Assembly: GCA_001972305.1 (NCBI GenBank)
Contig: BDDD01002122.1
Coordinates: 1-64,000 of the forward strand
Origin: Cephalotus follicularis
Lineage: Eukaryota > Streptophyta > Magnoliopsida > Oxalidales > Cephalotaceae
Direction: 5' to 3'
Length of the DNA: 64,000 nt
Shown: piece after piece, positions 2,391 through 64,000 of the stretch
How the letters are laid out: each line of letters opens with the position of its first letter
Position numbering within the stretch: the stretch's first letter is position 1
Position numbers and translations under genes: made by a program
The notes under the pieces: generated by a model
Seen by the model: only the letters and a program-made list of their open reading frames with translations
Told to the model about the DNA's origin: nothing
The model's database searches: none

Positions 2391-3055
2391 GGGCAAGCAA
2401 TAGCCGAGGAGGTGAACAAGCTCATGCAGGCAGGGTTCATAAGGGAACTGCATTACTCAGACTGGCTGGTGAACCCAATCCTAGTCAAAAAAGCAAATGG
2501 CAAGTGGAGGATGTGCATTGACTTCACAAACATCAACAAAGCTTATCCCAAGGATCACTTCCCTCTCCCAAAGATAGATCAGTTGGTGGATGCGACCTCG
2601 GGCTACAGAATGTTGAGCTTCTTGGATGCCTACTCAGGGTATAATCAAATCCCCATGTATGGGCCCGACTAGAACAAGACAACCTTCATTACAGACCGGG
2701 GGATGTATTGCTATAAAGTCATGTCTTTTGGTTTGAAGAACACAGGGGCCACCTACCGACGACTGGTCAACAAAATCTTTGAGCCTCAGATTGGGAGAAA
2801 CATGGAGGTCTACATCGATGACATGCTCGTCAAGACCCCAGCCAGGAGCCCCCAAATCAAAGACTTGGAGGAAACATTTGAGGTGTTGAGGGATCACAAG
2901 GGATTTTCCTGGTCGGACGAATGCCAAACAGCCTTCGATAAGTTGAAGGAATGCATGGCTTCCCCTCCTCTGATCTCAAAACCTAAGGACGAGGAAGACT
3001 TGTATTTGTACCTTGCAGCCACCTCGGGCGCAGTGAGTGCAGTGCTAGTTAGGAG
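2391..3055 (+). pseudogene. pol: E1 reverse transcriptase, internally deleted
   Basis: Ty3/Gypsy RT in a frame shifted relative to protease. Visible motifs are 'NPILVKKANGKWRMCIDF', then 'FLDAYSGYNQI' with the first catalytic Asp, and 'VYIDDMLVK' (about 2808-2835) with the catalytic Asp pair. A TAG interrupts after 'YGPD' at about 2670. After 'DLEETFEVLRDHKG' the sequence jumps straight to 'FSWSDECQTAFDKLK'; some 70-80 residues of RT thumb/connection usually found between them are missing, so this looks like an internal deletion near 2895. A second frameshift near 3054 leads to the RNase H. Confidence 0.85.
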
Positions 3056-3318
3056 GTGGAGAAAGTTCAAAAGCCATTGCACTATGTGAGCAAGGCTTTG
3101 AACTCTGCTGAGGGGAGGTACCCAGAGGTGGAGAAGTTCGCCTATGCTCTGGACATAGAGGCCAGGAAATTATGGCCATATTTTCAAGCCTATACAATCA
3201 AGGTTCTGACTGACAAACCACTCAAACAAGTTCTTGCGAAGCCTGAGACCTCAGGTAGATTAATCAAGTGGTCAGTTGAACTAGGCGAGTATGAGGTGAA
3301 GTTTGAAGCCAGGCTAGC
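3056..3318 (+). pseudogene. pol: E1 RT-associated RNase H fragment
   Basis: 'LHYVSKALNSAEGRYPEVEK' and the following residues match the C-terminal part of the RT-linked RNase H of plant Ty3/Gypsy elements. The frame stops at 'KFEARLA', where a 1.3-kb insertion (3319-4601) splits the gene; the continuation 'QVLADFVGDN' resumes at about 4614. Confidence 0.75.
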
Positions 3319-4601
3319 TGTCACACCCCGCCTTACACTTAACAGTCGACTGGATAGGGTTGAGTAGTCGACTGTCATGAAGAACAGTCGACTGCTTCTG
3401 CCCAGAAATGCAGGCAGTAGTAGGTTTGTATATTCCAATGTCTAATACAATTCAATCAGTGCATGCAATCAAGCAGAAAATAAACATACATGACATGCAT
3501 ACTCATATCTTCCAAAATATGTCATTACCCCTACCTCAATTGCTTTCCCGCAGAATCAATCTATACAATGCATGTTTGGAGATTCAGTCACTTAATCAGT
3601 AGGTTAACTAATTATCCAGCTACAATTGCTATTCTAACAGTGGTTCATCAATAATTCATTAAGCCTCATAATTATCCTTTTTACCACATCTCTATGAACC
3701 TTGTGTCAATCCACTTCAATCCCAGATTCATTGACCTTAAACGTGTGGACAGAAGGTGTGTATATATATACTTAAGGGAATCAGTAAGCTTATATCATGA
3801 CAACTAACAACAACTACAATCCAATTTAGAGGTTATAATCTCCACTTTACTTGAACCATTTACCACTTTCCATTTCAATTCTAGAAGTTGTTAACCTTAA
3901 CCATGTTAACAGAAGATATTCAACACTCTCCTAGTTACATTATCATCACATTAGCAGTGAGTTCGGATTGAAAACTTACCAAGAAAATCTAAAGCCTCAA
4001 TTCCCTCTTTGAGCTCTAATCCATCAACATGCAAGCTCCATCAATTTCCAGCCACTCTCCTCTATCTCCAGTGTTTTCTAACACTCACACACAGTTCTAG
4101 TAGTTGATATAAAGGCTTAGGGATCTTTGAATTCGCCAGATTACCATAACTCAGCCCTCTCCATCACATGCACTTCCCTTTCTCTCTTCTTTCTATCTCT
4201 TTCTCACCTTTCTCTTCTTTCCATTTTGTTTTGCAGGTTGCAGGTCTGCAGAGAACATGCAAGCACTCCATTTTGCATGCTCTGGCAGCTACTGTCACGC
4301 ATGACACCTGCCCTTCATGCAATGCCTTTTGATTCAGTCACACAGGCATGCACAGACACCTGCTCTGTACCGATCCAGTCGACTATCTTCAACAGGCAGT
4401 CGACTGTCATACCACGCATCAGACAGTCGACTGTTCCCCTGTAACAGTCGGCTGTCGATGGCTGCTTTTGGTTATTTTTGGCCCATTTGCTCAAATAAAC
4501 TAACAACCACAACTGTATAATAATTGGACATTAAATTCAAGTAAGTGCACATTTTATTCATCGGTATTACAATGTACACGAATTGAATTTGCAGTTATTA
4601 C
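3319..4601 (-). mobile_element. LTR-like insertion splitting E1 pol (probable solo LTR)
   Basis: The insert begins TGTCACACCCCGCC and ends ...TTATTACA. Read on the minus strand this is TGTAAT...GGGGTGTGACA, the form of plant chromovirus LTR ends; compare the 34134-36908 LTR, which runs TGTAAG...GGGGCGTGACA. It lies inside a conserved pol segment, so the borders are set by loss of the coding frame. The flanks ctagc and acagc match at only three of five bases, so the duplication is decayed or the edges are off by a few bases. No coding capacity is seen. It contains seven copies of a cagtcgactg-type palindrome, some imperfect, in two clusters (3342-3394 and 4376-4455). Confidence 0.6.
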
Positions 4602-4613
4602 AACAGCAATCAA

Positions 4614-5181
4614 ATCACAGGTCTTGGCCGACTTTGTTGGAGATAATACACCTACGGAGTGTATGGAGGAGGATCCCTCCGAGAGCGAGAGGGAATTGTG
4701 GAAGTTGTCATTGGATGGCTCTTCCTGTATCGCTGGCAGTGGAGCAGGACTGGTATTAATGAGTCCAAGTGGGTGGACGTTGGAGTATACTCTGAGGTTC
4801 GGATTTAAAGATAAAAACAACGAAGCTGAGTGGGAAGCTCTGATAGCTGGGCTGACAATTGCAAAGCACTTGGAGGTACAAAAGATAGAAGCCTCCAGTG
4901 ATTCTCAACTAGTGGTTAGCCTGGCAAGTGGAGAGTATGAAGCCCGAGAAGACTCAATGGAAAAATATTTATCACACTTCCAGAGTTTGAAGTCAGCCTT
5001 CGAAGTTCTAAGAGTTTTGAAAGTACCTAGAGCAGAAAACGCCCGAGCAGATCAGTTGTCAAAACTAGCCGCTGCAAAGGAGTTAGAAAAAAATCAAACC
5101 GTGCTAGCAGACTACCTGGACAGGCCCACTATTTTTGAACTAGACGTGATGGACATAGACATACCAGAGGAGCCGAACTAG
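4614..5181 (+). pseudogene. pol: E1 second RNase H (archaeal-type, aRNH)
   Basis: An open stretch ending in TAG at 5179-5181. It carries RNase H catalytic signatures: 'LDGSSCIAGSGAGLVL' (first Asp), 'NNEAEWEALIAGL' (Glu), 'SSDSQLVV' (Asp) and 'ARADQLSKLAA' (last Asp). A second RNase H between RT-RH and integrase is a known feature of Tat-lineage elements and helps place E1. All four acidic positions are visible. It is joined in phase to integrase except for the stop at 5179. Confidence 0.8.
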
Positions 5182-6412: not shown

Positions 6413-6584
6413 GATCTGGTGTAGGTTGTACAAATTCAAGATAGCAATAAAGTTGATTTTTTTCAAAATACTTGTTCAAGATCATAGTTCCAAGTTTGGA
6501 AGGGACCGGAGGACCATTGTTCATGTCCTTAAACTTCTGAACAGCTACCGATCAACTCCCTCAAGTCCCAGAAAGCCTCCGAGC

Positions 6585-7190
6585 CAGGGGAGCAATAAAG
6601 TTTCCCCCAGGGGAGCACCAAAAAGCCTCCCCCAGGAGAGTGCCCTAAAAGCCTCCCCCAGGGGAGCACCAAAAGCCTCCCCCGAGGGAGCACCAAAAAG
6701 CCTCCCCCAGGGGAGTACCACAAAAGCCTCCCCTCCAGGGGAGCACCAAAAGCCTCCCCGTCGAGGGAGCAAAAAAAGACCCCCCAGGGGGCATTACAAA
6801 AAGACCCCCCCAGAGGGGGATTCCAAAAAGACCCCCCTTGGGAGCATTACAAAAAGCCCCACCTGGGGGCATTCCAAAAAGACCCCCTAGGGGACATTCC
6901 AAAAAGACCCCCTAGGGGACATTCCAAAAAGACCCCCTAGGGGGCATTACAAAAAGACCCCCCTAGGGGGCATTCCAAAACGACCCTCCAGGAGAGAACT
7001 TAAAGACTCCTCCAGGGGAGCACCCAACAAAGCCTCCTCCAGGGGAGCACTTAGAGACTCCTCCAGGGGAGCATTCAACAAAGACTCCTCCAGGGGAGCA
7101 CTCAACAAAGCCTCCTCCAGGGGAGCACGAAAAGACCCCCCAAGGGCAGTTCTAAAAAGACTTACAAGGAAGCAATAAGACTCCCTAGGG
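6585..7190. repeat. Minisatellite between integrase and antisense gene (E1)
   Basis: About two dozen imperfect units of roughly 22-26 bp with the pattern ggggagcaccaaaagcctcccccag, drifting rightwards into gggggcattccaaaaagaccccc and then ctcctccaggggagcac. Long open frames here on both strands are repeat artefacts. The same position in E2 (15672-15915) holds a related array (gactccttccgaggagcac), so this is a standing part of the family. Confidence 0.85.
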
Positions 7191-10800: not shown

Positions 10801-12666
10801 GATATCAAAAGATCAAGAAAAAGTTTACTAACCCTAAAGCAGCTCTGGAAGAGATAAGTCCAGAGATGGGGAGTGTCCCAATCCTCTCTCAACTCCACTT
10901 CGCGGGGGAAGAGACCAGCCTTGCCCAAGGTGATAGCGACCCCAGATGTCTTCAAATTAATCCCAGCCTTGCCAAGCTTGGTGAGGATTTTGTTGATTTG
11001 TTCAATTTCTTTAGCAGGGAACATGAGGATAGGATCTTGGGAGCCCTCCTCAATAGGCTTGATCCTTGGTGCATCCCCCTCCTCTGTCCTCTGCCTCCTC
11101 GGTAGATGGTCAAGCTCCTCAACAGTAGTCTGCTTGCCCATGGAAATCTCAGCCCTCCTCTCTTCAGTCCTGGTATCAATAACCACATTGGTCTCTGCCA
11201 TCTTGTAAACCCTGACTGGGGTGCCAACGGCCTCCTCGGTCCCGGCCCTGGTCTCCTCATCTGCCTCGGTCCCGGCCCAGGTCTCCTCGGCCACCTCAGT
11301 CTTGATCCTTGCCGCCTCGGCACTTTTGGGAGCCCTCTCCTCGGTAGCCTTAGCCCGGGCCCATGCCTCCTCAGCTCTCTTCCGAGCATGCTTGTTAGCC
11401 CTGGCCCTGTCACTGGGCACCTTGGAGGCTCTTTTCCTGGCCCCGGTAGTAGACTTCCTCCTCATGAGGGCCTTTTTCTTCGATGCGGCCTCTCGCCTCT
11501 GCTCCTTGGGGTTATGAGCCCGGACCTGCTCCCGGGCAGACCTGACAACATCCAGAGTTGATTCTTGATTTTTCATCGCTGCACAAAGGCGTAGAAGGGC
11601 AGTAAGAAGAACATTTAAAGCATAGATGAAGGAAAACAAAAAATATATATGATAATAAATGATGATCCAAAGGAAAACATAGTACGGCTCTCTCCTTGGC
11701 CAGTTGCAATGGATTCAGGTCCATCTCGGGCAACCGTGATCCTCCCTCTCTTAACTCCCACAGCCAAGGATCCAGGTCTGTCTTGGGCATCCAAGCCCCC
11801 TTCAATCCTAATCCCCATGGGGATCTCCTCAGCCAGGTCCGAGCTAGCCCTACGTCCACGAGACATGCTAAGCCCATGGGTTTGCAAGCTTATCTCAGAG
11901 ACCACCACTAACACCTCCTCGGGAGCAAGTGTCAGAAGCTTGTCCAGGCCAACCTTCTCTTCCCTGCTCAGGGGCACCCTTAGGCTAAGGGCCACAGTGT
12001 CCAAGGTATCGCTCCACGGGCTCGGCGTGAAGCCAGGAAGGTTCTTGATCAAGAAGTACTTCTCCCTCCAATTTTTGACCAACCTGGTGTTTTCGGCCAG
12101 TAGTTTGTGACGGCCCGTACTAGACTTGAAGTAGAAGCCCCGCTTATTTGGGGAGGAGGTTATGGTGTGGAATTCCTTAAACAGCCCAACAGTGGCTGTC
12201 ACCCCCGCCTCTAGGCACCTAACCAGAAAGCCCATGATGAACCCCCATGACTGGGCCTAGAGCATCGAGGGGTGGACCTGGTAGTGTTCAAGGATGGTAA
12301 CGGCAAAGGGAGGCAGAGGAAACCTCAGCCCATGTTCCAGAGCATCTTGGAACACCACGAAGCTACCCGGTCGACACTCTATGACGGCCCTGGGGTTTGC
12401 AGGGATTTCAAAGTCGAGGCTGCTGGGGATGTAGTACTCCTTGACCAGCTCCGCCAGCTTCTTGGGGTCTATCTTTGTTCGGTTAAAGAGGGTCTCAGCA
12501 ACTTGAACCCCAGCCTCTACGACCGCCAGGTTGGGATTCCCGGCAGTGGAAGCCCCCATCTCCAACTCCATGTCGAGGGGGTGCTCGGCAATAGTGACCC
12601 CCATGGACACCTGGCCACCTCCTCAGGGCGTCTAACAAGCCTCTTTGTCTGTTTGGTCCTGGCCAT
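7872..12666 (-). pseudogene. E1 antisense accessory gene (H3-tail start, Transposase_28-like domain, coiled coils), broken and partly duplicated
   Basis: Begins at 12666 with M-ARTKQTKRLVRRPEEVA, whose first residues copy the histone H3 tail. A one-base frameshift near 12610 and a TAG after 'VHPSML' at about 12257-12259 (matching CAG elsewhere) break the conserved domain, seen as 'VVFQDALEHGLRFPLPPFAV', 'GFLVRCLEAGVTATVGLFKE' and 'SSPNKRGFYFKS'. Intron 1 is GT-AG (11579-11685 in one unit, 9684-9790 in the other). Exon 2 is rich in Lys/Arg, then Ala/Glu. Intron 2 is GT-AG (8868-8937). Exon 3 is a coiled coil with repeated 'VDNFKAS' units and an acidic tail. A 1895-bp duplication repeats most of exon 1 to the start of exon 3. 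The domain resembles the Pfam family called putative gypsy type transposon. Biochemical function is unknown. Confidence 0.75.
8809..12598. repeat. 1895-bp direct tandem duplication inside E1 accessory gene
   Basis: 8809-10703 and 10704-12598 appear identical over their length: every translated segment in the first recurs unchanged 1895 bases later. The junction at about 10697-10704 joins 'ctcggcaatag' (exon 1) to 'tgttcgaggaagg' (exon 3) with one extra base. Perfect identity in an otherwise heavily mutated element means either a very recent duplication or an assembly artefact. Confidence 0.9.
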
Positions 12667-12774: not shown

Positions 12775-12783
12775 TATTTAAAG
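12775..12783 (-). promoter_or_regulatory. Putative TATA-like box of E1 accessory gene
   Basis: Minus strand CTTTAAATA about 110 bases upstream of the accessory ATG (12666). The other three copies of this gene have CTTTAAAT at a comparable upstream place: 37621-37628, 45868-45875 and 60345-60352. The shared box suggests an internal promoter reading opposite to gag-pol. Confidence 0.5.
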
Positions 12784-18649: not shown

Positions 18650-20805
18650 ATTTAGTCCTCTGATGGGACATCATGTACAATGGGGGAATTGGGCATAACG
18701 GTATCGAGAGGAGGAGGCTCAAGATATGATCTGTGGTAGCTTCAGAGAATAGCACGAGGGCTCTCGATTGTTCATCCCTTGTTTGGTCCTCGGCCTCCTG
18801 AGCCAAGCGTTTCTGATCCTCATAGGTAGCTCAGGTTTCTAGCTCTTTGTCATCAACCCCCTCGGAAAAGAAGTCAAACTCGCTCATCCCTGGGCAGCAA
18901 ATGATAGAGTCAAAAGAAACACCTAATTGCCGAGCAACCAGGTTCCGGCAACTGTAAAAGCCCCGATAGTAGAGCACAGCAGACTCCTCAAAGATTGCAT
19001 CCTCAAAAGCAGATAAAGTCTTGAAGTCCTCCACGGCGGCGTCGATTATTGCTTGGAGTTCATCTGAAGCCTTGAATTCCGAGAGGGCTTTATCCACCGC
19101 CTCCTTGGCCCGAGCCTCTTCTCCGTCTCGGTAAGCGAGGAATTGTTTCTCAAGGTCTCAGTGTAATTTGTCCACGCGCGAAAATTCATGCTCGAACCTC
19201 ATCCTCTCAACCTTTTCTTTAGCCAAGGCCTCAAAGGCCTACCTTTTCTCCTCCAGGACAGACTCTTGAGCCCTGACCACTTCCTTCAGTTGGGTGCTAG
19301 CTTCGTTAGAAGATTTTTTAAGCTCAGCATTCTCTGTTTGAGGCCGCCTAATCTCTGTACAGGAGTCCTTGGCATCCTTGAGCAGGAGGTAAGCATCGCC
19401 CATGGCCAGGAAAAGAACACTCAAGATTAAAAGAGAGTAAAGCATCTACATGAAGAAAGAATAAGCAAAAGCCACTAACCCTAAAGCCACTCTGGAATAG
19501 ATGAGTCCATATCTGGTTGACTGACCAACCCTCCCTTGCCTCTACCTCGGCGGGTAAGAGTCCTAGCCTTCCAAGTTAGACGACTACCCCCGGAGTTTTC
19601 AGGCTTACACCCAATCTGCAGAGCTCGGAATATATCTCATTTACCCGACCGAGTTCCACAGGAACGTCAGGGCAAACGGATTGCCAAGGGGTCACCTCAA
19701 CAGCGTGATCCCGAGAAGGACCTACCTTATATTTCCTCATCTTTTGTTTCTTGGAAGGACGAGGTGGTAGATCTTTGGCCTTGCGCTTGCTGTAAGCAAT
19801 CTCAGCCCTAGCAGCCTCAGTCATAGCATTAGCAGTTGCAGCAGCAATAGCCTTCTAGGCTTCACGTCTCTCTGCCTCCTTGGCAACCTTACGAGCAACC
19901 GTCTCCTCGGCCCTCCACCTTGTGTCCTCAGAAGGGACCCTTATTCTCCTCTGAGCAGTCCTCAAAACATCATCAATAGAACGACGATGAGCCATTGCTG
20001 CACACGATAATGAAATCAGTTAGTCAAAGGCATAGGTTATAGAGATAAGAGAAGACTAAGCAAAGAGCCATAATTGGAGGAGATGAAGGCTTAATACGGC
20101 TTTCGCTCTCAGCTTTGGACCGAGTTCCAGGTTCTTCACAGCAACTATCAACTCCCTCTCTCTCACTCCCCACGGGAATCTCTTCGTCTATCTCCAACAG
20201 AACTCGCCGACCAAGGTACATACTCAACGCAATGTCGCGCTAGCGATCCTCGCTGATGACATGATTGACTTCCTCAGGATCCAGAGGAGAGAGCTTCTTC
20301 AAGTCATCTTTCACAGCGGTGGACAAAGTCAGCCTCTGATTGAGTAGAGAAACATTCAAGGAGTCACACCACTGGCCGGGAGTGAATCCGGGGAGGTTCT
20401 CAACAAGAAAATACCTCTCCCTCTAACCCTTCACAGACTTGGTGGGCTCCACCAACAGCTTCTTGGTCAGACTAACGCGGGACTTGAAATAGAACCCGCG
20501 CTTACCGGGAGAAGTAGCTAGAGCGTAGAACTCCTTGAAAAGCCTCACTATTGCCGTTGCTTTGACCTCCAAACATTTCACTAAGAATCCAATGATGAAG
20601 GCTCAGGATTGTGCCTGCAACAGAGAGGGGTGGATCTGAAAGTGCCTCAACATTGCTATGGAAAAAGACGGTAGGGGAAGCCTCAAGTCGTGCTCCAGAG
20701 CATCGAAGAACACCACAAAGAGGCCAAGCATACTCTCAGTCACCTCCTTGGAATCTTGGGGGAGAGAGCACATCAAATTGCTCGAAAATCCGTACTTCTC
20801 GGCCA
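18650..20805 (-). pseudogene. E2 antisense accessory gene, 3' part
   Basis: Continuation of the gene that starts at 37374, displaced by the Copia insertion. On the minus strand from 20805: 'LAEKYGF', then a degraded Transposase_28-like domain ('FKEFYALATSPGKRGFYFKS', 'KKLLVEPTKSVKG'), intron 1 (19998-20097, GT-AG, same place as in E1 and E4), a Lys/Arg-rich stretch, intron 2 whose acceptor is TTCCTGG where E4 has TTCCAGG so the AG is lost, then a coiled coil with 'FKASDELQAI' and an acidic tail ending about 18650. Several stops and frameshifts. Confidence 0.7.
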
Positions 20806-20810
20806 GTTTC

Positions 20811-22662
20811 TTTTGGAACCTTATGGCGATTAAGCAATAAAATATCTAGATACATAAAACCCTAAAACATATATTGTGTGATCATCTCATGAATATCAAG
20901 CCATATGGTCCGTTTCCAGAATCTTTTGAGCATACATTTATAGTTAGATACAAAACAATAGGGAGGAGCAGACGGAATTACTCACATGATTGGAGCGGCT
21001 CCTTCCTTCTTCCAATGAGTCTTCTTGCTTCAAAAAACACAGCTACTTATTGAATGGATTACACGGTTCTAGCTTCCAAGTATAGAAAGCCTCCAAGGTA
21101 TCCACACCAAGCTTTAATTTCTAACACCAGGTTTCTCAAATATTCAACTCTTGATTGTATATGAGAGAAAGGAGAGAAGATACCAAGAGATAGAACAAAA
21201 ACATCCAACAACAACTACAACAACAACTCTTAATAGGAAGGGGTGTGTGTTCTATATATACTTGCTGCTAGACAATCATATTAGAACACGAACTCTTATC
21301 CTATCATGCTTAGGGTTTCCTAATGCATTCAAGATTCTTCCTTAGATAGTCTTTCTCTCCTTTTTGACTTGTACTTTCCTTAATCTCATTAAGGATAATT
21401 AATCTCATTAATTATATATATATATATATATATATTTAATCTCATTAAATATATTTATATATTTATATATTTAATATATTTAAATATAATTAGGAAATAA
21501 CATCCCAATTATTTTTCTCTCATCAATGTGTTAGAAATATCTGCCCGTATTGTGTGTGACCCTATGGGTTCACTATTACGCTAGTCGTAGTATTAATATT
21601 GTGATGCTCACAATTATACAATTAAATATTTATTATCTCATAAACAATATTGTCTTGAATATATCGAATTCAAACTCTTTTAATTCTTTTTCTTCCAAAA
21701 TTAATTTATTAATTTAACCTCGGGCATCCTACTGGTCGACATCGACATCTAGTAATGCATAACGACCCCCAGGTAATATGAATCATTTGTGAACCACTAT
21801 TTACAGGTACATGCACGTATAGTCCTTCCATTGACAATACTCTAATTAAATCTAGGGTACGAAATATTTCAGACCCCAATAATTTAATCTTTAGGCTCGT
21901 GACTATTTTTCATTAGCCTAAATAATATTAGAGGTGCCCCTCTAATATGCAACCAATGATATCACACTCTTGATATCGTGGCTAGCCTGGCCAGGCGTTT
22001 AATTGCTAGCGAAAATCATCCTGGGCATAATATTCTTTTACTAGACACAATGGATTCGTTGTTGCCAGTTCACATGCCTCCATACATAAACGTACTATGT
22101 CCAACTAATGCATGTATACACTTCATTGAATATGTATTTAAGCATCATCAAAACACAGCACCCTATGCACAAGACATCTAGTAACGGCTCATGTCTAAGG
22201 ACCACATAAACTGTTGTAAAACTAGAATTCTGTCTGACATCTAAGTAAAACTCCATACAGATATTCTATCAACGGTCACCTTCAGTGAACTCATTAAATG
22301 AGCACCCACGTAGTTGTCATAGCATCATCCATGCGAGTGATTGTGAGATCAGTCACCCTCTGCTTACTGATCTGACAGTACATGCCGGTCTATCCGGATT
22401 GATCATGCCCTGAGTGTCAATCCTATGACCAAGAAGATTCAAAATAAAGTATACTGAGATTCCAACTCTCACATCATGATCTCATCATGAACTTGGTTCT
22501 CTAACTTTATTCCAGGACATTCACTTACAATAAAACATGTATTAATGAAACAAACTCATAGCCATTGATAAAACATAAACATCTTTATTGAATTTATAAA
22601 TCGTTTATACAAGATAAAGTAAATACAAGCTCGACACTGGCTTGCAGCACTTCGTCTCTAAC
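20811..22662 (-). mobile_element. Copia 3' LTR
   Basis: 1852 bp. The right end ...ctctaaca abuts a minus-strand polypurine tract (actgggagat). The left end TTTTGGAACC fits TGTTGGAACC with one change, giving inverted ends TGTTrGA/TCyAACA. Minus-strand GTATATATAGAACAC (about 21245-21262) is a plausible LTR promoter, leaving about 1.4 kb U3 and 0.4 kb R-U5. The length and TGTTGG termini recall Angela/BARE-type elements; lineage is tentative. Confidence 0.7.
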
Positions 22663-24110: not shown

Positions 24111-24479
24111 TACCTTCAGTAAGAAAACTACCATAGTATCTCTCAGGTTCCCAGGGTAATCAGGTAGTTCTACACAGAGGTTGTGTATCTGTGGTAGCTG
24201 ACATTTCAGGAACATCAATTTGAATAAGATTGGTTAGGTCCTCAAGTTAGGGTTCTTTAGATCATTCATCTAGCTCTATCACACTCCCACTACTATCTTC
24301 CAATAGGAAGTCCTTCTCAAGAAAAGTAGCATGTCTGGCCACAAACACTTTGTTGTCAGGTGGATAATAGAAGTAATATCCTCTTGTTTCTTTAGTATAT
24401 CCCACAAGTTTACATTTAATTGACCCAAATTCCAACTTATCTGTTGCTGCCTACTTAACATATGTAGGGAAACCCCATA

Positions 24480-25068
24480 TTCTTAGGTAACTAAGTTTGG
24501 GTTTCTTCCCATTTCATATCTCATATGGGGTCTTGGGAGCAGATTTCGTTGGAGTCCTGTTCAATAAGAGAACAGGAGTCTCTAAAGCATAACCCCAGAA
24601 AGATAGTGGAAGTCCAACATCGCTCATCATGCTACTCACCATGTCAAGCAAGGTACAATTTCTCCTTTCAGATAGATCACTATGCTGTGGTGTTTTCGGA
24701 GGGGTCCACTGATAGATAATCCCATTATCTTTGAGATAAGTTAAAAACTCAGTAGAGAGATACTCACCACCTCGATTTGATCGAAGAGTCTTTAAACTTT
24801 TACCAGTATGTTTCTCTACCTCATGTCTGAAGTCTTTGAACTTTTCAAAGGCTTTAGATTTGTACCACATAAGGTAAAAATAACCAAAACGAGATTGATC
24901 ATCCGTAAAGGTTATGAAGTAGGAATATCCACCTCTAGCGTCAACTGTCATTGGTCAACGTACATCAGTATGTACTAGACCTAGCAGTTCTAGGGTCCTT
25001 TCCCCTTTCCCTGTGAAGGGAGATTTGGTCATTTTACCTTTAAGACAGGGTTCACAAGTTGGAAACGG
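24480..25068 (-). pseudogene. pol: Copia integrase with altered catalytic residue
   Basis: 'GGYSYFITFTDDQSRFGYFY' is the core with the first Asp. The second catalytic site reads 'LRSNRGGEYLS' (codon AAT at 24775-24777) where Copia integrases have Asp, so the triad is broken by one base. 'TPQHSDLSERRN' shows the Glu region, normally with Asn-Gly-Val before the Glu. The C-terminal part continues to about 24290 in fragments. Confidence 0.8.
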
Positions 25069-26517: not shown

Positions 26518-27179
26518 TGTGACTTCTGCAGATATAAAATAAAGACAATATTGATAAGCATAAAAATGTGTGATTTTAATGATATATTTATTATATTTTT
26601 ATGCTTGGAATAGACTACTGTGGTGGTGTTTATTTGATTTTCAGGTATTATTTAATTATTGCGGGATGAGAGAAAATAAAGCTAAAACGCTACTTTTCGA
26701 GCTAAAGTGGTTTGAAGTCAACGATCGGTTAAAGAGTGAACCCACTTAAACGAGACAAGTCAAAATTTAAGATTCGGAAGATATTGAATATTGGGCTCAT
26801 TTTGTTCATAAAATTATTTGGAGCACTTTTAGTTCTTGGGCTGACTCATTTTGAAGATCCGACGAAGAGATATTGTAAAAAAACAAATGTTGAAGCATGT
26901 AGAGCCCACTGATTGCATAATCATGACATCACTCTCCAATGTTACAATCTTTTGCCGTGTAAAGACCACAACTTTCATAATCTGCCGAATCAAAGCACAT
27001 GCTTCATCCATGCATACAATATCAAGCAGCCCATGCGTCCATACCCATCAGCAGCCCAGCATCCAACATGCAACAAATTCTGCCGAGTCTTCACACATGC
27101 GCCAACGCCACGAGTCCATACATCAGCAGCCCAACATTCACGTGCATACAAGCCCATGCGCAAAATACGTGTTTAATTA
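26518..27179. other. Unassigned stretch at the left edge of the chromovirus
   Basis: Should hold the Copia leader, primer site and 5' LTR U5, or the start of the chromovirus 5' LTR, but neither can be recognised. Phrases such as 'ttgggctcattttg' and 'tcttgggctgactc' faintly recall the chromovirus LTR start at 34134. No gene seen. Confidence 0.4.
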
Positions 27180-31524: not shown

Positions 31525-34096
31525 TCCCTCAGAATGTGTATCGATTACCGGCAGTTAAACAAAGTGACAATCAAGAACAAGTATCCACTGCCACACATCG
31601 ACGATCTGTTCGATCAACTTAAGGGATCTTCAGTATTTTCTAAGTTGGATCTGAGATCAGGATATCACCAGCTCCGAGTTAGAGCGGAAGATATTCCCAA
31701 GACTGCCTTCAGATCACGATATGGGCACTACGAATTTGTAGTAATGCCTTTTGGGGTGACCAACGCCCCTGCTGCATTCATGAGCTTTCATGAGCCTGAT
31801 GAACAAGATATTCAGCCCATATCTTGACCAGTTCATAGTGGTGTTCATCGATGACATCTTGATATATTCGAAGTCTATGGAAGAACATGGTGAACACCTA
31901 CACTTGGCATTACAGACTCTCAGAGACCATCAGTTGTATGCCAAGTTTAGTAAATGTGAATTCTGGTTATCAGAGGTGACATTCCTTGGTCATGTTATAT
32001 CCAGCGCAGGATTGTCAGTAGATCCTACAAAGATCGAAGCAGTGAAGAGCTGGAGACAACCAACGAATGTGACGGAAGTCCGGAGCTTCCTTGGCTTGGC
32101 AGGATATTACCGTCGGTTCGTAGAAGGCTTTTCAAAGATAGCAACACCTCTGACTAGATTGACGCAGAAGAATGTGGCCTTTGTTTGGGATGATGCTTGT
32201 GAACGGAGTTTTCAAGAATTAAAACATCGTCTGACTACTGCGCCAGTCCTAGCCCTACCAGAAGGCAACGAAGGCTTTGTCGTATACAGTGACGCATCAG
32301 GCAGTGGCCTGGGTTGTGTCCTTATGCAGAATGGAGGAGTGATCGCATACGCCTCACGAAAGCTTAAGCCTCATGAAGAAAACTATCCCACTCACGATCT
32401 TGAGTTGGCAGCGATAGTATTTGCCCTACGTAAATGGAGGCATTATCTATATGGTACAAAGTTCGAAGTGTATACAGATCACAAGAGCCTTAAATACTTG
32501 TTCTCACAGAAGGACTTGAATATGAGACAGCGCAGATGGATAGAGTTGCTGAATGACTATAACTGTGAAATACAATACCATCCAGGCAAGGCTAATGTGG
32601 TTGCAGATGCTCTTAGTCGCCGTTTAGCTTGCCTAACCATTTCTCATATTCAGACACGTCCATGGCTAATGGACCGAATCCGTGAAGCTCAGAGCCACGA
32701 TGGTGATCTTCTTAAGCTAGCTTTGAGCAATGATGGAGGTTTAAAACCGGATTTTTCTGTACAAGGTGACGGATTAATCCGATACCAGGGCAGAATATGT
32801 GTTCCTAATGATAAAGAAGTAAGGGATGAACTGTTGTCACAAGCGCATCGTTCTAGCTTCTCCGTACATCCAGGAAGTACCAAGATGTACCGAGATCTAA
32901 AGCTGGACTATTGGTGGAACAACATGAAACGGGAGATAGCTGAATATGTGGCTTCCTGTTTGACATGCCAACAGGTTAAAACAGAACACCAAAGACCAGT
33001 AGGATTGTTACAGCCATTGCCTGTGGCACAGTGGAAATGGGAACACATAACGATGGATTTCGTGACAGGACTGCCTGGAACAAGGAATGGCCGTGATGCT
33101 ATATGGGTGATCGTCGATCGCTTTACTAAGTCTGCTCATTTTCTCGCAATCAAGACGAACTTTTCTCTGACACGGCTGGCCAATATGTATATTGCTGAAA
33201 TTGTGAGACTCCATGGAGTACCAATCAGTGTGGTGTTTGACAGAGACCCCCGTTTTACATCGCGGTTTTGTAGGAAACTGCAAGAAGCTTTTGGTGCTCA
33301 GTTAAATTTTAGCACAGCTTTTCATCCTCAGACTGATGGACAGTCTGAGAGGACCATTCAGACTCTGGAAGACATGCTACGAGCATGCGTTTTGGATTGG
33401 GGAGGTAGCTGGGAAGACCATCTACCGCTGGTAGAGTTCTCGTACAACAACAGTTTCCACGCCAGTATTGGTATGGCGCCGTTCGAGGCTCTTTATGGAA
33501 GGAAGTGCAGAACCCCAATCTGTTGGTTCGAAGTGGGAGAACAGAGTCTTGTGGGACCCAAGCTTGTACAAGACACAGTTGAGAAGGCAAAAGTTATCCG
33601 GGAAAGACTCCGTACAGCACAAAGCCGACAGAAAAGCTATGCAGACCACCGCAGGCGAGAATTGGAGTTCGCTGTGGGCGATCATGTATTCCTTAAAGTC
33701 TCTCCGACTAAAGGAATTATGAGGTTCGGCAAGAAAGGAAAACTGACTCCTCGGTTTATAGGACCTTTTGAGATCCTTGAGAGAGTGGGTCCTGTTGCTT
33801 ATCGACTTGCCTTACCACCCAGCCTGGCGGATGTGCACAACGTGTTTCATGTTTCGATGCTACGAAAGTACCATCCCGACCCTTCTCACATCTTACACTG
33901 GGAACCTCTAGAGTTGAGAACGGATCTGAGTTTCGAAGAGATGCCTATCCGAATTCTCGACCGACGAGTTAAGCAATTGAGAAATAAGACCATTCCGTTA
34001 GTGAAGGTGTTATGGCAATACCACGGAACGGAAGAAGCCACGTGGGAAAGAGAAGATGATATGCAGGCTAAATACCCCCAGCTGTTTTCATCCTAG
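31525..34096 (+). pseudogene. pol: Chromovirus (Tekay/Del-like) pol: RT, RNase H, integrase, chromodomain
   Basis: The frame starts inside RT with '[20 protein letters not shown]'. A 10-bp tandem duplication (31776-31785/31786-31795, tcatgagc) shifts the frame in the 'APAAFM' motif. From 31790 the rest is open for 768 codons: '[12 protein letters not shown]' (catalytic Asp pair), RNase H '[16 protein letters not shown]' and '[11 protein letters not shown]', integrase zinc site '[11 protein letters not shown]'...'CLTC', core '[11 protein letters not shown]', '[13 protein letters not shown]' and '[10 protein letters not shown]' (D, D, E present), and a C-terminal chromodomain-like part '[19 protein letters not shown]'. 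Only the gap and the 10-bp duplication are seen to break it, so it is young compared with the Tat copies. Confidence 0.9.
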
Positions 34097-36908: not shown

Positions 36909-37142
36909 CAGGAAGATTCAAAATAAAGTATACCGAGATTCCAACTCTCACATCATGATCTGATCATGAACTTGGTTCTCTAACTTTATTCCAGGACATT
37001 TATTTACAATAAAACATGTATTAATGAAACGAACTCATAGTCATTGATAAAACATAAACATCTTTATTGAATTTATAAATCGTTTATACAAGATAAAGTA
37101 AATACAAGCTCGACACTGGCTCACAGCACTTCATCTCTAACA
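36909..37142 (-). mobile_element. Remaining piece of the Copia 5' LTR
   Basis: 234 bp matching 22428-22662 of the Copia 3' LTR, ending 'catctctaaca' next to the target duplication gtttc. The chromovirus 3' LTR abuts it on the left, showing that the chromovirus inserted into this LTR. Confidence 0.85.
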
Positions 37143-37374
37143 GTTTCTTCATCTTCTCGGGGCCTAGTTTGCTTTTGTCAAAATGGGTCCTAAAAACTTG
37201 GACCCCAGCTTCCGTGGGAGCAGCGTTGGGAGCGCCCGCGGCAGCAGCCTCCACCTCAATATTAGTAACGAGAGGGCGCTCGACGACAGTTCCCAGGTCA
37301 TTGATGCGCTGGATCGCGACAGAAGAGATTGGTTGGGAGCCAGCAGGTCTGGCAGTTTGCTTGGTTCGAGCCAT
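37143..37374 (-). pseudogene. E2 antisense accessory gene, 5' part with H3-like N-terminus
   Basis: Starts at 37374 (minus) with M-ARTKQTARPAGSQPISS, identical to residues 1-8 of mature histone H3, followed by 'VEAAAAGAPNAAPTEAGVQV' and 'FRTHFDKSKLGPEKMKK'. It is split at 37143 by the Copia element; the continuation is at 20805. The start is chosen because the same M-A-R-(T/S)-K-Q-T begins the gene in all four copies. This part has no stop or frameshift and has the longest H3 match. Confidence 0.8.
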
Positions 37375-37620: not shown

Positions 37621-37628
37621 ATTTAAAG
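37621..37628 (-). promoter_or_regulatory. Putative TATA-like box of E2 accessory gene
   Basis: Minus strand CTTTAAAT about 250 bases upstream of the ATG. It is preceded by gagagtgatctttatc, also found immediately before the box in E5 (60329-60344). Confidence 0.55.
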
Positions 37629-39003: not shown

Positions 39004-42000
39004 ATGGGTTCTCTAGGAGGTGAAACTGCAAAGAAGGCAATGTGGCTCTATCCAAAAGTTTTAGGATTTAATCCTTCTGAAAGATGGGGGCACTCTGCTT
39101 GCTATTCTCATGGAGCTGTTTATATTTTTGGGGTATGTAAAATTTCCTTCAAGAAAATGAAACTTGCTTGCCATGTTTTTATATCATGTATTTTCATATT
39201 CATATGGCCATATATTTATAATATCTCTTTGTAACTAACTCTACTTTTTTATTTTGGTATTTGAGTCCAACATTTTAGAATTATTCTTTTGAGGCCTCAG
39301 CATGAAGCACAAACAGTACAGATTCCTCTGGATGGTTGTTCTGTAACTACCAGTTCACTTGTTTTGTTAAGTTTCGTATTTTGTTGTGTGCCAGTGTAAG
39401 CCATTTTTTGGTTGAAAACCTTTGAGACTTGTACTTTAATAAGATCCCAGTATCCAAAATAGCCATTTTTATCTACTTATTTATGTTTTGTACCACAAAA
39501 ATATGATAACTTTGGCTAAGAAGAGGCACACTTTTTTCATTGGTATTACTTCTTTCCTGTTTTCTCTTCTTCTGTTTGTTGTTGGTATATTGCTCTAGGT
39601 TTCGTCTGGTCTTAGATTCATATCTTAGTAAGACATGCAGTTGTCTTGTCGCCTGCTGGAATCAACATTTTATGCGTTCTTCATGTATTTCTTTCCACTC
39701 CTTCATTTTCTCTGATCATATTTTGTCTTCAATCCTCCTTTTATACATTAATTAATATTACATACATACTCCACATAATATATGTATATATATCTTGCTA
39801 AGAAAATAATGTCACTCCAGCTGGATAATATAATAACTTCATGCCAATATCCTGCTGTGTCACGAAATAAATGAATAAAAAAAATCAAATTTTTTTTTTC
39901 ATTATGAAATTTACAAAAAAAAAAAAAAAAAAAAAGTGTCTCTGCCTATGCTTAAATACTTTGCTTTCTTTTTCCATTTTTGTTTTGGCGTTTAGTTTTT
40001 GTGCTACCTTCGTTGTAATTTTCCTCTCAAAACTTGAGTTCCAAATATTAGAAGAGATAAACCAATAAAAGACAATAGTTGGAAGAGGAAGAAGAAGACG
40101 AAGAAAGCTCTTTAGCTCTCCTGTATATCAATGTGTCTTAACACGCACTTCTTTGTTTGTTCTCCTCTCATGACATGACTTTTTGGAGTTATATTTAACC
40201 TTCTCTAAGAAAGTTGGATTGAAAATGTGCATACATCAATTCACTGCAAAGGCAACAGAGAGAATTGGGGTTGGGGGACTTAAAATACTTCAATATGTAG
40301 CTCAATGGATCTCATAGTTCCATAAAATTGAAATATCATACAAAGAAAGAACGAAAAAGCATAATCTTACCTCAAATTACTTTGCCCTTAGCTCCTTCAA
40401 TAAAACCCTGTAAAAAAAATTTCCCAAATTGGAACATCTAAAACATGCAGTCCACTGTTTGGCCAGTATGCAAACAAAGTGAAACAGAATCCTATGTTCT
40501 TAATTTGTCCCAAGCTTATATTAGGTGACTTTAATTTGTAATGTACTATTTACTTGTTTCATACCGTGAAAGAAATGGAAACTGTAAGATAAGGTAATTT
40601 TGATTCTTTTTTCTTCTAAATAGGAGAATTAAGAGCAACAGTACTATTATTTAACGAGATTTCAATTGCATTCCTATACTACATTTTGATATATTCTCTC
40701 CGCCTGCCACTTCAGGGATGTTGTGGGGGTCTGCATTTCAGTGATGTTCTTGTACTAAATCTTGACAGAATGGTTTGGAATACTATTGCAACCACCGGCC
40801 AAGGTCCTGGGCCAAGGGATAGCCACAGTGCTGTTCTTGTGGGGCATCACAGAATGATAGTATTTGGGGGCACCAATGGTTCTAAGAAGGTAAATGATCT
40901 TCATATATTGGATCTTGGGACCAAACAGTGGGCACGGGAGGAATGCAAAGGTACTCCTCCAACCCCTCGTGAAAGTCACACCGCCACGCTTGTTGGTGAT
41001 GATAAAATGGTGATATTTGGGGGTAGTGGAGAAGGTGAAGCAAACTGCTTGAATGATTTGCATGTTCTAGACCTTAAAACAATGAGATGGACTTCTCCTG
41101 AGGTGAAGGGTGACATTCCTGTTCCCAGAGACAGTCACAGTGCTGTTGCAATAGGTAACAAGCTTTTTGTCTATGGTGGGGATTGTGGTGATAGGTATAA
41201 TGGAGATGCTGATGTGCTTGATATGGACACATTTACTTGGTCAAGGGTATCAACTTCACTTTCCTCTGCTTCACAAATCCAGTGTTATGAAGTTAAATGA
41301 TCTATTAATATATCATGTGTATAATAAACGGGTTGGGGTGCTAATTATTTTTTATTTTCTTCAGTTGGCTGTCCAAGGGTCCACACCGGGTGTTCGAGCA
41401 GGACACGCTGCTGTGAATATTGGAATGAAGGCAAGTAATGTTTCTAAAATAATGGTTTTATAAGTGAGATGAGTTTCTTTCTTTGGCATTTAAAGTGGGT
41501 TTCCATTTTATAGCGTAAATGAGATCTATCCTCCAAATAAGATGACAAGATTATATCCCAGTACAATCTTCAGTGATTGCTATTTGAGTTTATGGTTTTG
41601 CAGGTTTATGTCATTGGTGGGGTTGGAGACAACCATTACTACAATGATGTTTGGATCCTTGATGTGACCACTTGTTTGTGGGCTCAGCTTGATATACGTG
41701 GCCAACAGCCACAAGGGCGATTTTCTCACACGGCTGTTTTCACAGCCTCTGACATTGCCATATATGGAGGGTAGGTTTCTATCATATGTTATAGGTTACA
41801 TTTCCCCCATCTTATTAGCTAATTTGCATCCCTGTTCTCATTTGGGTTCAGTTTTTCCTCTCTGAATTTGCAGTTGTGGAGAGGATGAACGTCCCCTCAA
41901 TGAACTGTTGGTCTTGCAGCTTGGAGCCGAGCATCCTAATGGACGATACAACATTTCCATGTGCAAAATCTTTGGAAACCATTGGAACCAACAAAAAGGA

Positions 42001-45535: not shown

Positions 45536-46101
45536 TATACCCTCCTGATCTTCATTTTCTGGACTTGACGGAGGATGGAGACCATGTGTAGCCTAGCTTC
45601 GGATGAGGCTCGTTGTCCATGCATGAAATGGACTAATTCCCTGGTTGAGCCTGATTACTCGGCCCAGGTCGGGCATCTAAGAAGATGTGACACGACATAG
45701 GGCGCTTCAATTAATGCTAATCATGACGCGGAAGTGGAAGAGTTTTTCACGCCTTTGTCTCTTCGATTCCCGCGAATAGACCATTCGTTTCTCGTACCTG
45801 ACTTGACAGGCTAATCTCCACTGTTTTGATCAATAGAGATCCAAAGGTCAGAGAGAAATCCAAGGTTCTTTAAATTCCCCCCTCTCTTGGTGAGAAACTC
45901 TTTACGCTTTCTTACTCTTTGAAACTTTGAAAATTATCTGCTTTTCCAATCTTCAAACCCAAACTTTTCTTTGTTTCTTCACCACCAAAAATCCCAGGTA
46001 AACTAATTTTCTTCGCTTGTTTTTACCTTTCTGTTTGAGTTCCCAAAGGTTTCTCTCGACCTCTGTATCCCTGTCACACACACTGTCTCACAGAAGCTGC
46101 A
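45536..46101 (+). promoter_or_regulatory. Promoter and 5' UTR region of the E4 accessory gene
   Basis: Contains CTTTAAAT (45868-45875), then a pyrimidine-rich leader. 'aaatcccag' followed by gtaaactaat (about 45996) and 'ctcacag' just before 'aagctgcaatgg' could be the donor and acceptor of a 5'-UTR intron; E5 (ctggtgagtca ... atcag) and E2 (tttggtgagtt) have a donor in the same place. The start is the ATG at 46102. Confidence 0.5.
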
Positions 46102-48860
46102 ATGGCTAGAACCAAACAAACCAAGAGATTCATCAGATCTTCCAAGGAGGTAGCACAAGCATCAGGAGGGGTTACCATAGATGAGCGTCCCCTTGATGCC
46201 GAGGTGGAGATGGAGGTCAATACTGCAGGTGCTCCCGATATTACATCCACTGAGGCTGGGGTCTAAGTATTTAGGAGCCATTTTGACCAGAGTGTGTTAT
46301 GCCCGAGGAGGGTGGAGGAGTCAGTCGAAAAATACTCCTTCCCGAGCATCCTAGAATACGAGATTCCCGACGATCCCAAGGTGGTCATAGAGAACAAACC
46401 TAGTCATTTTGTAGTTTTCCTAGATGCTTTGGAGCACGGACTAAGGCTTCCTCTGCCGTCCTTTGCTATAACCATCCTGAGGCATTACCATATCCACCCG
46501 TCGATGCTTCAAGCTCAGTCCTTTGGGTTCATCATCGGCTTCTTGGTGAGGTGCCTGGAGATAGGGGTGATAGCCACGGTGGGGCTATTCAAAGAGTACC
46601 ACATTGTGAATTCCTCTCCCAATAAGCGTGGCTTCTACTTCAAGTCTCGCGTGAGTCAGACCAAGAAATTATTGGTGGAGAACACCAAGTCAGTCAAAGG
46701 CTGGAAGGGGAGGTATTTTATGGTCAGGAACCTTCCTGGCTTCACTCCCTGTTCATGGTGTGACACTTTGGACACCGGGAACCTTAATCAGAGGATGATT
46801 TTGACCGAGGCCGAGAAGGCCGACTTGGAGAAGCTCTTTACTCTAGCACCCAAGGATGTGACCTCCGTGGTCTTTGAGGATCGTTTGGACCTAGTTGGGC
46901 TAAGCATGTCCCCGGGTCATCGGGTTAGCCTGGAGATGGAAGAGGAGATCCCCATGGGGATTGTGAGAGAGAGGGACCAGGATACCCGAGATGAACCTGC
47001 ATCCTCTGCTATTATCGAAGGAGAGATCCGTATTATGCTTTCCTCTAGATTCTTGTCTTCAATTTTATTTCATACCTTATTTTTGATGTGTTTCTAACCA
47101 TTTCTTTGTGATTCCTTGCAGCGATGGCATCTCGGGAACCAACAATGGATATCATAAGGGCTGGACGGGAAGTTGCCTGAGCTGCTAACACCGAGGAGCT
47201 AAGGCAAGAAGCTCTTAGGAAGAAAAAGGCTTATGAGAGAACTGCCGCTGCGACGAGGAAGAAGGTAGCTAAGCAAGTTGCTGCTGCTAAGTCCAGAGCC
47301 GAGGAGCAAGCTCGGATTGAGGTTGAGGAGGCCATGACTGGGGCCAAGGTTGATGAGGCCGGGGCTTGGACCGAGGCGGTCGGGCTGTTGAGGCTGAGGT
47401 GGCAAGGACCAGGGCTGAGGAGGTCGAGGCTGATGTGGCCGAAGAGGCCAGGGCTGAGGACGTCGATTAGGCTAGGGTCGAGATTGCTCGTGGCAAGAGG
47501 CATGCCTTAGATTCACTACTTCATCCTTCCAAGAGGCAGAGGAGGGTAGAAGAGGTAGATGCTCCTCGGGATGGGACCACCGAGGGGAGCTCCCAGGACC
47601 CCGAGTTCCCTGATCCGCCCGAGGAGCTCAGGCAAGTGAGACAGTTCCTCCAAGAGCTAGGCAGCTCGGGTATTAATTTGAAGACGCCAGGGGTTGCCAT
47701 TGAGCTTGGTAGTTTGGGGCTTTTTCCCCATGAGATCGAGGTGAGGGAGAATTAGTCCATTGGCCAAATTTGGGCTCACCTGTTCCAAAGCAACTTCAAG
47801 GTATGCGGACTCTTCCCATTTTCCCTTTTTTTTGAAGAATCTTTACTCCTTTTCTAACCTTGTATTTATTTTTTCCAGGCCATGGGTGACGCCTGTTTCC
47901 TACTGGAGAAAGCTAAGGAAGATGAGGCCTTGGTCAAGCAACTCGGGGCTGAGAATTCCGAGCTTAAAAGGTCATTGGACACAGCCTGTGCATAACTAGA
48001 GGAGGTGCTCGGGGAACAAGAATCCATCCTCGAGGAGATGAGGAAGGCTCTTGAGGAGCTGGCTATGGAGTAGAGGACCAAGCAGGCTGCCATCCACCAT
48101 AACATCATGCTCGAGAATAAGTTGATGGCTATAGTGAAAAGCTTGAAAAGTTTCATGAACTTGAGGATGCTCGGTCCAGTGCGGCAGTGGAGAGAGCCAT
48201 CTTGAACTTCAAGGCTTTCTCGGAGTTCCGAGATGCTCAGGCCAAGGCTGTTGAGGACTTCAGAGCTTCCTCAGAGTTCCGAGATGCTCAGGCTAAGGCC
48301 GTAGACGACTTTAGAGCTTCCTCGAAATTTTAGGATGCTCTGACCAAGGCTGTGGAAAACTTCAAGGCCTCTCTAGATTTCAACAAGGAGTCCTTAAGGT
48401 GTCCTCAGCCCTTTGTCGTCCGGGATTTTATACCTGCCGAAACATGGTCGGATGTCATCCGAAGCTTCCACTGGACTCCATTATTTGTGTCCTTTGGTGA
48501 CTTAGTACGACTTCTTTCCTGATGGTGTTGATGCTGCAGAGGAAGAAGCTCTTCGGGCCTACGACGAGGAGCAAAGTCATGCTCGGGAACCTGAGTGGTC
48601 GCTTGAGGGTCATGACATGGTTCTATTAATTGATCCTCCCGAGGAGCCTAACCTTCAACCTTTGGCCGTGGATACCCATATGGAGCCTTCGACTGAGGAT
48701 CCTCCACTTGAGCTTTTGGCTGTGGATCCCCGTGATTAGCCTGCGACCAAGGATCCTCCACCTGTGCCTATGGCCGAGGATCCTCTTCTTGAGCCTATGG
48801 CTGAGGATCCTCCTCCCTTTGTACTTGACCTCCCTTCCGGGGATGGAGCATACAGTAGAT
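46102..48860 (+). pseudogene. E4 antisense accessory gene, best-preserved copy
   Basis: Starts M-ARTKQTKRFIRSSKEVA. Exon 1 (46102-47029) has one premature TAA at 46264 where E2 has CAA. It holds the Transposase_28-like domain: 'FVVFLDALEHGLRLPLPSFA', 'GFIIGFLVRCLEIGVIATVG', 'SSPNKRGFYFKSRVSQTKK' and 'YFMVRNLPGFTPCSWCDTLD'. Intron 1 is 47030-47121 (GT-AG). Exon 2 is Lys/Arg then Ala/Glu rich, with a TGA near 47179 and a frameshift, ending 'GINLKTPGVAIELGSLGLFP'. Intron 2 is 47801-47878 (GT-AG). Exon 3 is a coiled coil with 20-residue units such as 'AVEDFRASSEFRDAQAKAVD', then a Pro/Glu/Asp-rich tail. It is transcribed opposite to the element's gag. Function unknown; chromatin association is a hypothesis from the H3-like start. 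Confidence 0.8.
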
Positions 48861-50077: not shown

Positions 50078-50121
50078 ACAGGTTATCTCATTATTCTTAA
50101 TTGTTAGAGATATAAAGATCC

Positions 50122-63417: not shown

Positions 63418-64000
63418 ATGGCCCGGAGTAAGCAAACCGTCCGACCTACTGGCTCCTAACCAATCTCTCTGGCAGCGATTCAACATGTCACTGAACTGGT
63501 GACTGTAACCGAGCGCCCTCTCGATGCAGATGTCGAGAGGGATGCTGCAGCCACGGGCACTTCGAACATTGCTTCCACTAAAGCTGGGGTCCAAGTTTTT
63601 AGAACTCATTTTGAAAAAAGCGTGCTCTGTCCCGAGAAGGTAAAGGAATTGATCAAAAAATATGTATTCCCGAGAAGCTTGGAATGGTCACTTCTTCGAG
63701 ATCCCAAGGAGGTGACTATGAGCAGACCTGGTCTTTTCGTAGTGTTTTTGGATGCTTTGGATCATGGCTTGAGGCTCCTTCTTCCACCATTTGCTATATC
63801 AGTATTGAGGCATTTCCATATTCATCCCTCACTGCTACAAGCACAATCCTGGGGCTTCATCATAGGGTTTTTGGTGAAGTGTTTAGAGGTCGGAGCAATG
63901 GCTACTGTGGAGCTTTTCAAGGAGTTCCATTCTCTGGCTGCTTCCCCCAGCAAGCGCAAGTTCTATTTCAAGTCCCGTGTTGGTCTGACCAAGAAGTTGT
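63418..64000 (+). pseudogene. E5 antisense accessory gene, 5' part, runs off window
   Basis: Starts M-ARSKQTVRPTGS at 63418, then TAA at 63457-63459 where E2 has CAA (Gln). The frame continues: 'VQVFRTHFEKSVLCPEKVKE', 'LFVVFLDALDHGLRLLLPPF', 'SWGFIIGFLVKCLEVGAMAT' and 'SPSKRKFYFKSRVGLTKK' to the window edge. A 5'-UTR intron is likely: donor 'ctg|gtgagtcatt' near 63326 and acceptor 'ttatcag' just before 'tcttctaatgg'. Apart from the single stop this part of the domain is open. Confidence 0.8.

Follow-up and report, generated by a model that had tools for sequence, protein, structure and literature searches.

A histone H3-like N-terminus kept by selection on the antisense TRP28 protein of a Retand-type retrotransposon family in Cephalotus follicularis

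Why should the accessory protein of a plant retrotransposon begin like histone H3, and does such a beginning mean anything? The question is raised by a 64,000-nucleotide stretch of the Cephalotus follicularis genome (contig BDDD01002122.1; hereafter, the window), where four copies of an antisense gene (aORF) open with M-ARTKQT or a close variant of it. The original prediction placed these starts at 37374 on the minus strand (M-ARTKQTAR, copy E2), at 12666 on the minus strand and 46102 on the plus strand (M-ARTKQTKR, copies E1 and E4) and at 63418 on the plus strand (M-ARSKQTVR, copy E5), and stated that nothing after about residue 9 resembles H3. Reading of the sequence confirmed all four positions exactly, and in none of the four copies does the resemblance extend beyond residue 8. 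Across the whole window, a degenerate DNA pattern matched these four starts only when no mismatch was allowed; with up to three mismatches seven matches were obtained, against a mean of 2.5 in shuffled sequence.

In this aORF we recognise the TRP28 (PF04195) accessory gene that Ty3/gypsy retrotransposons of the Retand/Tat type carry in antisense. At E1, pol pieces on the plus strand, opposite to the aORF, encode the reverse transcriptase and first RNase H (RVT_1, RT_RNaseH and RT_RNaseH_2; 2673..3364) and, downstream of RT_RNaseH, a second, Tat-like RNase H (RVT_3; 4504..5178, plus strand, E 9.1e-16), and the TRP28 gene occupies 7875-12666 on the minus strand. E1 has an antisense Transposase_28 ORF between pol and the 3′ LTR, with a tandem array of ~25-nt units (6584..7162, plus strand) between pol and the aORF and, from 13905 on, beyond the aORF, repeats that are common to the regions beside the other aORF starts. 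No integrase was found in the E1 pieces scanned with Pfam. The pol of angiosperm Ogre and Retand elements carries a second RNase H (aRH) between RH and INT (PMC6317226), and the E1 layout, with pol on the plus strand, TRP28 on the minus strand, the array and the repeats, matches that of Retand elements within the Tat clade (PMC11963269, PMC6317226). The TRP28 ORF described for Retand (Vicient 2025, PMC11963269) likewise lies antisense between pol and the 3′ side and carries PF04195, in elements with tandem repeats in this region, a TATA-like upstream region belonging to the gene itself and a long internal region. According to the same account, the antisense gene, whose function is not known, occurs in 97% of the Retand clusters with recent activity; TRP28 is predicted to be a possible DNA-binding domain, and the antisense protein of Grande is nuclear. 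The aORF differs from this account in its H3-like N-terminus, of which the available part of the paper makes no mention (PMC11963269).

All four window copies are decayed, their frames being broken shortly after the start. The start codon and H3-like residues 1-8 of E2 (37348..37374, minus strand) open a 96-aa frame (37087..37374, minus strand) that is aORF-like to about residue 80 and has no TRP28; near 37147 the frame enters an unrelated repeat, the TRP28 part being lost, and the repeat joined there to the truncated E2 occurs in three places (16797-17035, 22430-22668 and 36909-37147). Upstream of the E1 start (12640..12666, minus strand) an in-frame ATG, absent from the original prediction, is found at a distance of 42 nt. 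The TRP28 piece of E1 (12260..12622, minus strand) lies in a different frame from this start and contains the first half of PF04195 at 25.8 bits, just under the Pfam cut-off of 26.2 bits. The frames of E4 (start at 46102..46128, plus strand) and E5 (63418..63444, plus strand) are ended by TAA codons at 46264 and 63457, respectively. Their downstream pieces contain PF04195, at piece residues 49-114 in E4 (46267..47094, plus strand; E 2.4e-8, 34.5 bits) and at piece residues 94-159 in E5 (63460..63999, plus strand; E 6.6e-8, 33.1 bits), the latter piece being cut by the end of the window. A fifth aORF remnant (20455..20813, minus strand) shows homology to the TRP28 region only and, having lost its 5′ part, is uninformative about the N-terminus. 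TATA-like TTTAAA sequences lie upstream of the starts of E1 (12777..12782, minus strand), E2 (37622..37627, minus strand) and E4 (45869..45874, plus strand).

The window holds further traces of mobile elements. The E1 antisense gene contains a 1,895-nt tandem duplication of 99.9% identity (8803-12594, minus strand), which has given rise to a 404-aa chimeric ORF and appears to be recent. A second tandem array, of ~23-nt units, lies at 15689-15823; like the first, it invites comparison with the repeats found in Retand elements and with the targets of VANC proteins. A chromovirus pol fragment at 31784-34093 (plus strand) consists of a 770-aa open frame that encodes reverse transcriptase, RNase H, integrase and chromodomain. 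Ty1/copia elements are represented by a 553-aa gag open frame (50116-51774, plus strand) and by pol and gag pieces (23596-26598, minus strand), and a Kelch-repeat coding piece (40620-41297, plus strand) is probably a fragment of a host gene. A tRNA scan found none.

The abundance of the motif was established in the Cephalotus follicularis assembly (1,577,397,061 bases in 9,746 contigs), where exact MARTKQT starts numbered 2,551, against 2 for a reversed-pattern control; the degenerate DNA pattern used also allows Ser at residue 2, which was Arg in 50 of 50 copies examined. Residue 8 was R in 46 of these 50 matches and the TRP28 region was present in 46 (27/30 and 19/20), and none of the 50 continued as histone H3 (KSTGGK). 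Histone H3 genes were therefore rejected as the source of the genome-wide matches, and the aORF itself falls outside the histone H3 family, the downstream pieces of E4 and E5 being TRP28.

Two samples of copies were then considered that had been picked by downstream protein motifs, blind to the N-terminus, and that are less decayed than average owing to this choice of an intact downstream motif. Sample 1 was defined by EAGVQVF, 50 codons away (492 sites, the first 90 in listed order read), and sample 2 by QAQSWGF, 136 codons away (1,431 sites, the first 60 in listed order read), with at least four copies in common by position. A start was called recognisable when at least five of the eight motif positions matched. 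Such starts were present in 81/90 copies of sample 1 (exact MARTKQT in 23/90, no recognisable motif in 9/90) and in 54/60 of sample 2 (exact in 29/60, none in 6/60). In sample 2, the motif was found in 0/60 cases on the opposite strand and in 0/60 in shuffled sequence, where the best scores never exceeded 4. Among the 81 starts of sample 1, the expected residue was kept by 56 (A1), 64 (R2), 66 (T3), 77 (K4), 71 (Q5, with five stops), 81 (T6) and 76 (R8); the corresponding figures among the 54 of sample 2 were 44, 50, 47, 52, 53, 52 and 50. Residue 7 was K in 37, R in 21 and A in 13 copies of sample 1, besides others, and K or R made up 58/81 and 51/54 in the two samples. Across the family the N-terminus reads [A/P]R[T/V]KQTxR, which in most copies is identical to H3 residues 1-6 plus R8, and the possibility that the motif is confined to four loci or occurs at chance level is ruled out for this one genome.

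Protein searches for TRP28 relatives returned Cephalotus follicularis proteins only (13 distinct), the database seeming poor in plants for this family; the motif stands at the start of none of the listed Cephalotus TRP28 proteins, whose models open further downstream. When 25 residues of E2 were compared with the PDB sequences, nothing was matched, H3 peptides included, and the test is too weak to inform. An AlphaFold model of protein P0001 from a 13-row alignment was unusable (pLDDT 37, pTM 0.30). Viral contigs yielded 33 phage or viral MARTKQT matches, which fall into about six families of ORFs of at least 80 aa with no relation to one another, so that the heptamer alone is no proof of mimicry; chance or some other cause may lie behind these phage starts. 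Protein P0001 had no match in the viral contigs, and among 115 stretches obtained by a degenerate-motif scan of them, run as a chance control, none showed TRP28 similarity.

If translation began at an upstream ATG, the H3-like peptide would not be N-terminal. No in-frame ATG separates the nearest upstream stop from the MART methionine in 44 of the 81 copies; the remaining 37 have one before a stop is reached (27 at -36 to -45, 6 as MM, 4 other). A stop codon directly precedes the MART ATG at 4 of 30 loci, and 76 of 81 copies carry TTTAAA between -330 and -60. One large clade carries a serine-rich in-frame leader (MSTASSSSSLSE..., -42 to -1) before MARTKQT. In the same 33 copies, pN and pS were.230 and.260 for this leader vs.099 and.556 for codons 1-6, indicating that the leader evolves like non-coding DNA; it was rejected as the real N-terminus because it shows no amino-acid constraint. 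We favour the MART codon as the start, the clade with an upstream ATG being a real uncertainty.

Constraint on the peptide was measured by comparing non-synonymous and synonymous differences. Among the four window copies, pN over codons 2-7 was 0-0.075 and pS 0.64-1.29 in all six pairs. In the E4-E5 pair, 11 of 184 seven-codon windows had a pN as low as the start window, which is therefore not unique there and indicates that the TRP28 domain is conserved too. For 67 copies in register and matching at least five of the eight motif positions (23/90 dropped, a selection that favours a low ratio), pN/pS was 0.20 in codons 1-6 (bootstrap 0.17-0.24) and 0.57 in codons 9-34 (0.52-0.61), the former being lower in 25/25 replicates of a bootstrap that comprised 25 replicates only. 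The lowest six-codon windows among the first 50 codons of these copies were at the start. The ratio for codons 1-6 was 0.22 when all 70 in-register copies were kept, and 0.51 vs 0.69 downstream when all 90 were taken at a fixed offset, frameshifted ones included; the codon analysis ignores mutation bias, and C to T decay is evident. By codon, pN and pS were.050 and 1.361 at K4,.047 and.851 at Q5, 0 and.382 at T6 and.044 and.828 at R8. Among codons 1-6, A1 and T3 varied most (pN.310 and.296). The values at the free positions were.484 and.799 at x7 and.574 and.710 at codon 9, and residues 9-12 are free to vary. Constraint starts at the MART ATG and not in the leader, and it stops after residue 8.

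When 84 copies (81 sampled and 3 from the window) were placed on a tree by their downstream region, ARTKQTxR recurred throughout, with one V3-rich and one P1-rich clade, and the scattered N-terminal changes of single copies look like decay. Genome-wide, the variants T3V, A1P and Q5R numbered 568, 313 and 156, and K4R 8, one or more of these with Ser2. The near absence of K4R, although an A-to-G change of the same kind gives Q5R, points to a lysine-specific reader over charge alone, with the reservation that the two counts are unmatched for mutation, codon or ancestry and that Q5R includes repeated identical sequences resembling sublineages. Across the family in this one genome, purifying selection on the protein maintains the N-terminus [A/P]1-R2-[T/V]3-K4-Q5-T6-x7-R8. 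Where the original prediction described the H3-like start at four loci, it now proves to be widespread among the antisense TRP28 genes of this genome and maintained there by selection, with K4 retained even against arginine. A strict ARTK reading of it is weakened by the amplified V3 (568) and P1 (313) subfamilies.

That a selected H3-like peptide exists is well supported, and the aORF agrees with known H3-tail mimics in having H3-like residues at the ORF start that are kept by selection. Functional H3-tail mimicry of some kind by this N-terminus is, by a narrow balance of the sequence evidence, probable. An A or P at position 1 permits removal of the initiator Met, and its removal would leave the TRP28 protein exposing an H3-tail look-alike. 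This look-alike could dock into a host protein that reads or modifies the unmodified or K4-methylated H3 tail, the likeliest partners being LSD1-like or JMJ-type H3K4 demethylases, or H3K4me0 readers feeding RNA-directed DNA methylation (RdDM), because K4, Q5, T6 and R8 are the most constant residues and Pro is accepted at position 1, a feature of the SNAG peptides that block LSD1. Such partners would be occupied at the element by the predicted DNA-binding TRP28, and silencing of the element would be lowered. The maintenance of RdDM depends on LDL1, LDL2 and JMJ14, and SHH1 is a reader of the H3K4 state (PMC3820799), so that a decoy for them would protect the element. The N-terminus may in this way recruit or titrate chromatin factors, as the original prediction supposed. 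Even if H3 mimicry is granted, the partner class and the anti-silencing direction are conjecture, with a real but minor chance of being right. We regard as doubtful the fullest form of the idea, a Retand H3-tail decoy in which the TRP28 protein, on its own DNA, would occupy H3K4 demethylases or H3K4me0 readers and block RdDM, lineage-wide in flowering plants and as the function of the accessory gene.

The SNAG N-terminus reads MPRSFL, the family pattern being P-R-S/G-F-L-V. The aORF is not a SNAG-domain protein, P1-R2 occurring in one subfamily and K4-Q5-T6 standing in place of F-L-V. It resembles the SNAG domain of GFI1 and SNAIL in being an extreme N-terminal peptide whose mature residue 1 may be Pro, and SNAG acts on the K4 demethylase LSD1 as an inhibitor and H3-tail mimic (PMC5896174). 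Position 4 of SNAG is not a lysine, whereas the aORF motif keeps K4-Q5-T6-R8. The SNAG mutation P2A abolishes LSD1 binding (PMC5896174), and A1 and P1 need therefore not be interchangeable. Another counterpart is PAF15 (PCLAF), which is no histone but carries the H3 residues R2-T3-K4 at its mature N-terminus; its 2-VRTK-5 is bound by the UHRF1 PHD finger in the manner of H3 1-ARTK-4 (Kd 2.2 vs 1.5 uM; PMC7060239). PAF15 belongs to the host, acts in the cell cycle and has V as residue 1; its binding was established by ITC and a crystal structure, that of the aORF product being a proposal. The N-terminal tail AKER of Sgo1 is bound by the Survivin BIR domain like H3 (PMC9253516), a free H3-like N-terminus serving as docking peptide as is proposed for the aORF, although Sgo1 is a host protein and only A1 and the charge pattern are in common. 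By analogy, PAF15-UHRF1, Sgo1-Survivin and SNAG-LSD1 make the docking step physically reasonable. For what such docking might achieve, the VANC proteins of VANDAL transposons offer a model: they are anti-silencing and act on non-coding regions forming tandem repeats (PMC10398659). Like VANC, the aORF product is an accessory protein of a plant mobile element, and the tandem array beside the E1 aORF is comparable to VANC targets; unlike it, VANDAL is a DNA transposon, the protein is unrelated, and VANC activity has been shown whereas that of the aORF is conjectural. We know of no H3-like peptide in VANC.

Several observations count against mimicry: A1 and T3 are the least constant positions, residue 7 is mostly K or R so that the motif is also simply basic, all window copies are broken, unrelated phage families start with MARTKQT by chance, and the data come from one genome. 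A short basic signal, for nuclear import or for binding of nucleic acid or of partners among the element's own proteins, selected on its own account and with convergence on H3 in the absence of mimicry, is rather unlikely, yet it deserves attention. The basic residue 7, the amplification of the V3 and P1 subfamilies, the MARTKQT starts of about six phage ORF families and the nuclear location of the Grande antisense protein (PMC11963269) would all suit it; it does not account for the uncharged Q5 and T6 being as constant as the basic residues (T6 in 81/81 and 52/54), for the near absence of the charge-keeping K4R (8) beside 156 copies of the charge-adding Q5R, or for the freedom of residues 9-12. 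Improbable, in our view, is a start elsewhere or a conserved DNA signal, regulatory or for processing, that would make the peptide internal or incidental: the 37/81 copies with an upstream in-frame ATG, E1 among them, speak for it, but amino acids are kept while synonymous sites vary freely, the leader shows no amino-acid constraint (pN.230, pS.260) and the 44/81 copies with no such ATG, the stop directly before the ATG in 4/30 and TTTAAA in 76/81 agree with a start at MART.

A tether to H3-binding proteins that served integration targeting or the recruitment of activating chromatin, and not inhibition of silencing, would be consistent with the peptide data as well. That chromatin can guide targeting is shown by the chromodomains of other plant Ty3/gypsy elements, and one chromodomain element lies in the window itself (31784-34093); the aORF is, however, antisense and outside the integrase polyprotein and is not known to enter particles, which leaves this account a slight chance. 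Least probable of all is a captured histone H3 exon carried along as a relic. Many copies match H3 exactly at residues 1-6 and 8, but a passively carried sequence could not retain its amino acids as its synonymous sites drift apart, and the H3 continuation was found in 0/50, so the passive relic was rejected; capture of an H3 exon followed by selection may still be the origin of the N-terminus.

H3-like N-terminal peptides are already known, and what is new is the presence of one on a retrotransposon accessory protein, an unexpected place. A literature search covering titles and the beginnings of abstracts, with few subscription papers, found no earlier report of an H3-like retrotransposon N-terminus. 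The H3-like N-terminus is a genuine, selected feature, with which the element may imitate H3 to handle the chromatin machinery of its host. As such, it provides the first concrete, cheap handle on the function of the TRP28 gene. If the mimicry reading is true, a retrotransposon protein would be seen to mimic a histone, and plant mobile elements would have, in addition to VANC, a second means of countering silencing. The thousands of natural copies would then also amount to a mutational survey of what H3K4 binders tolerate, V3 and P1 being accepted and R4 almost never.
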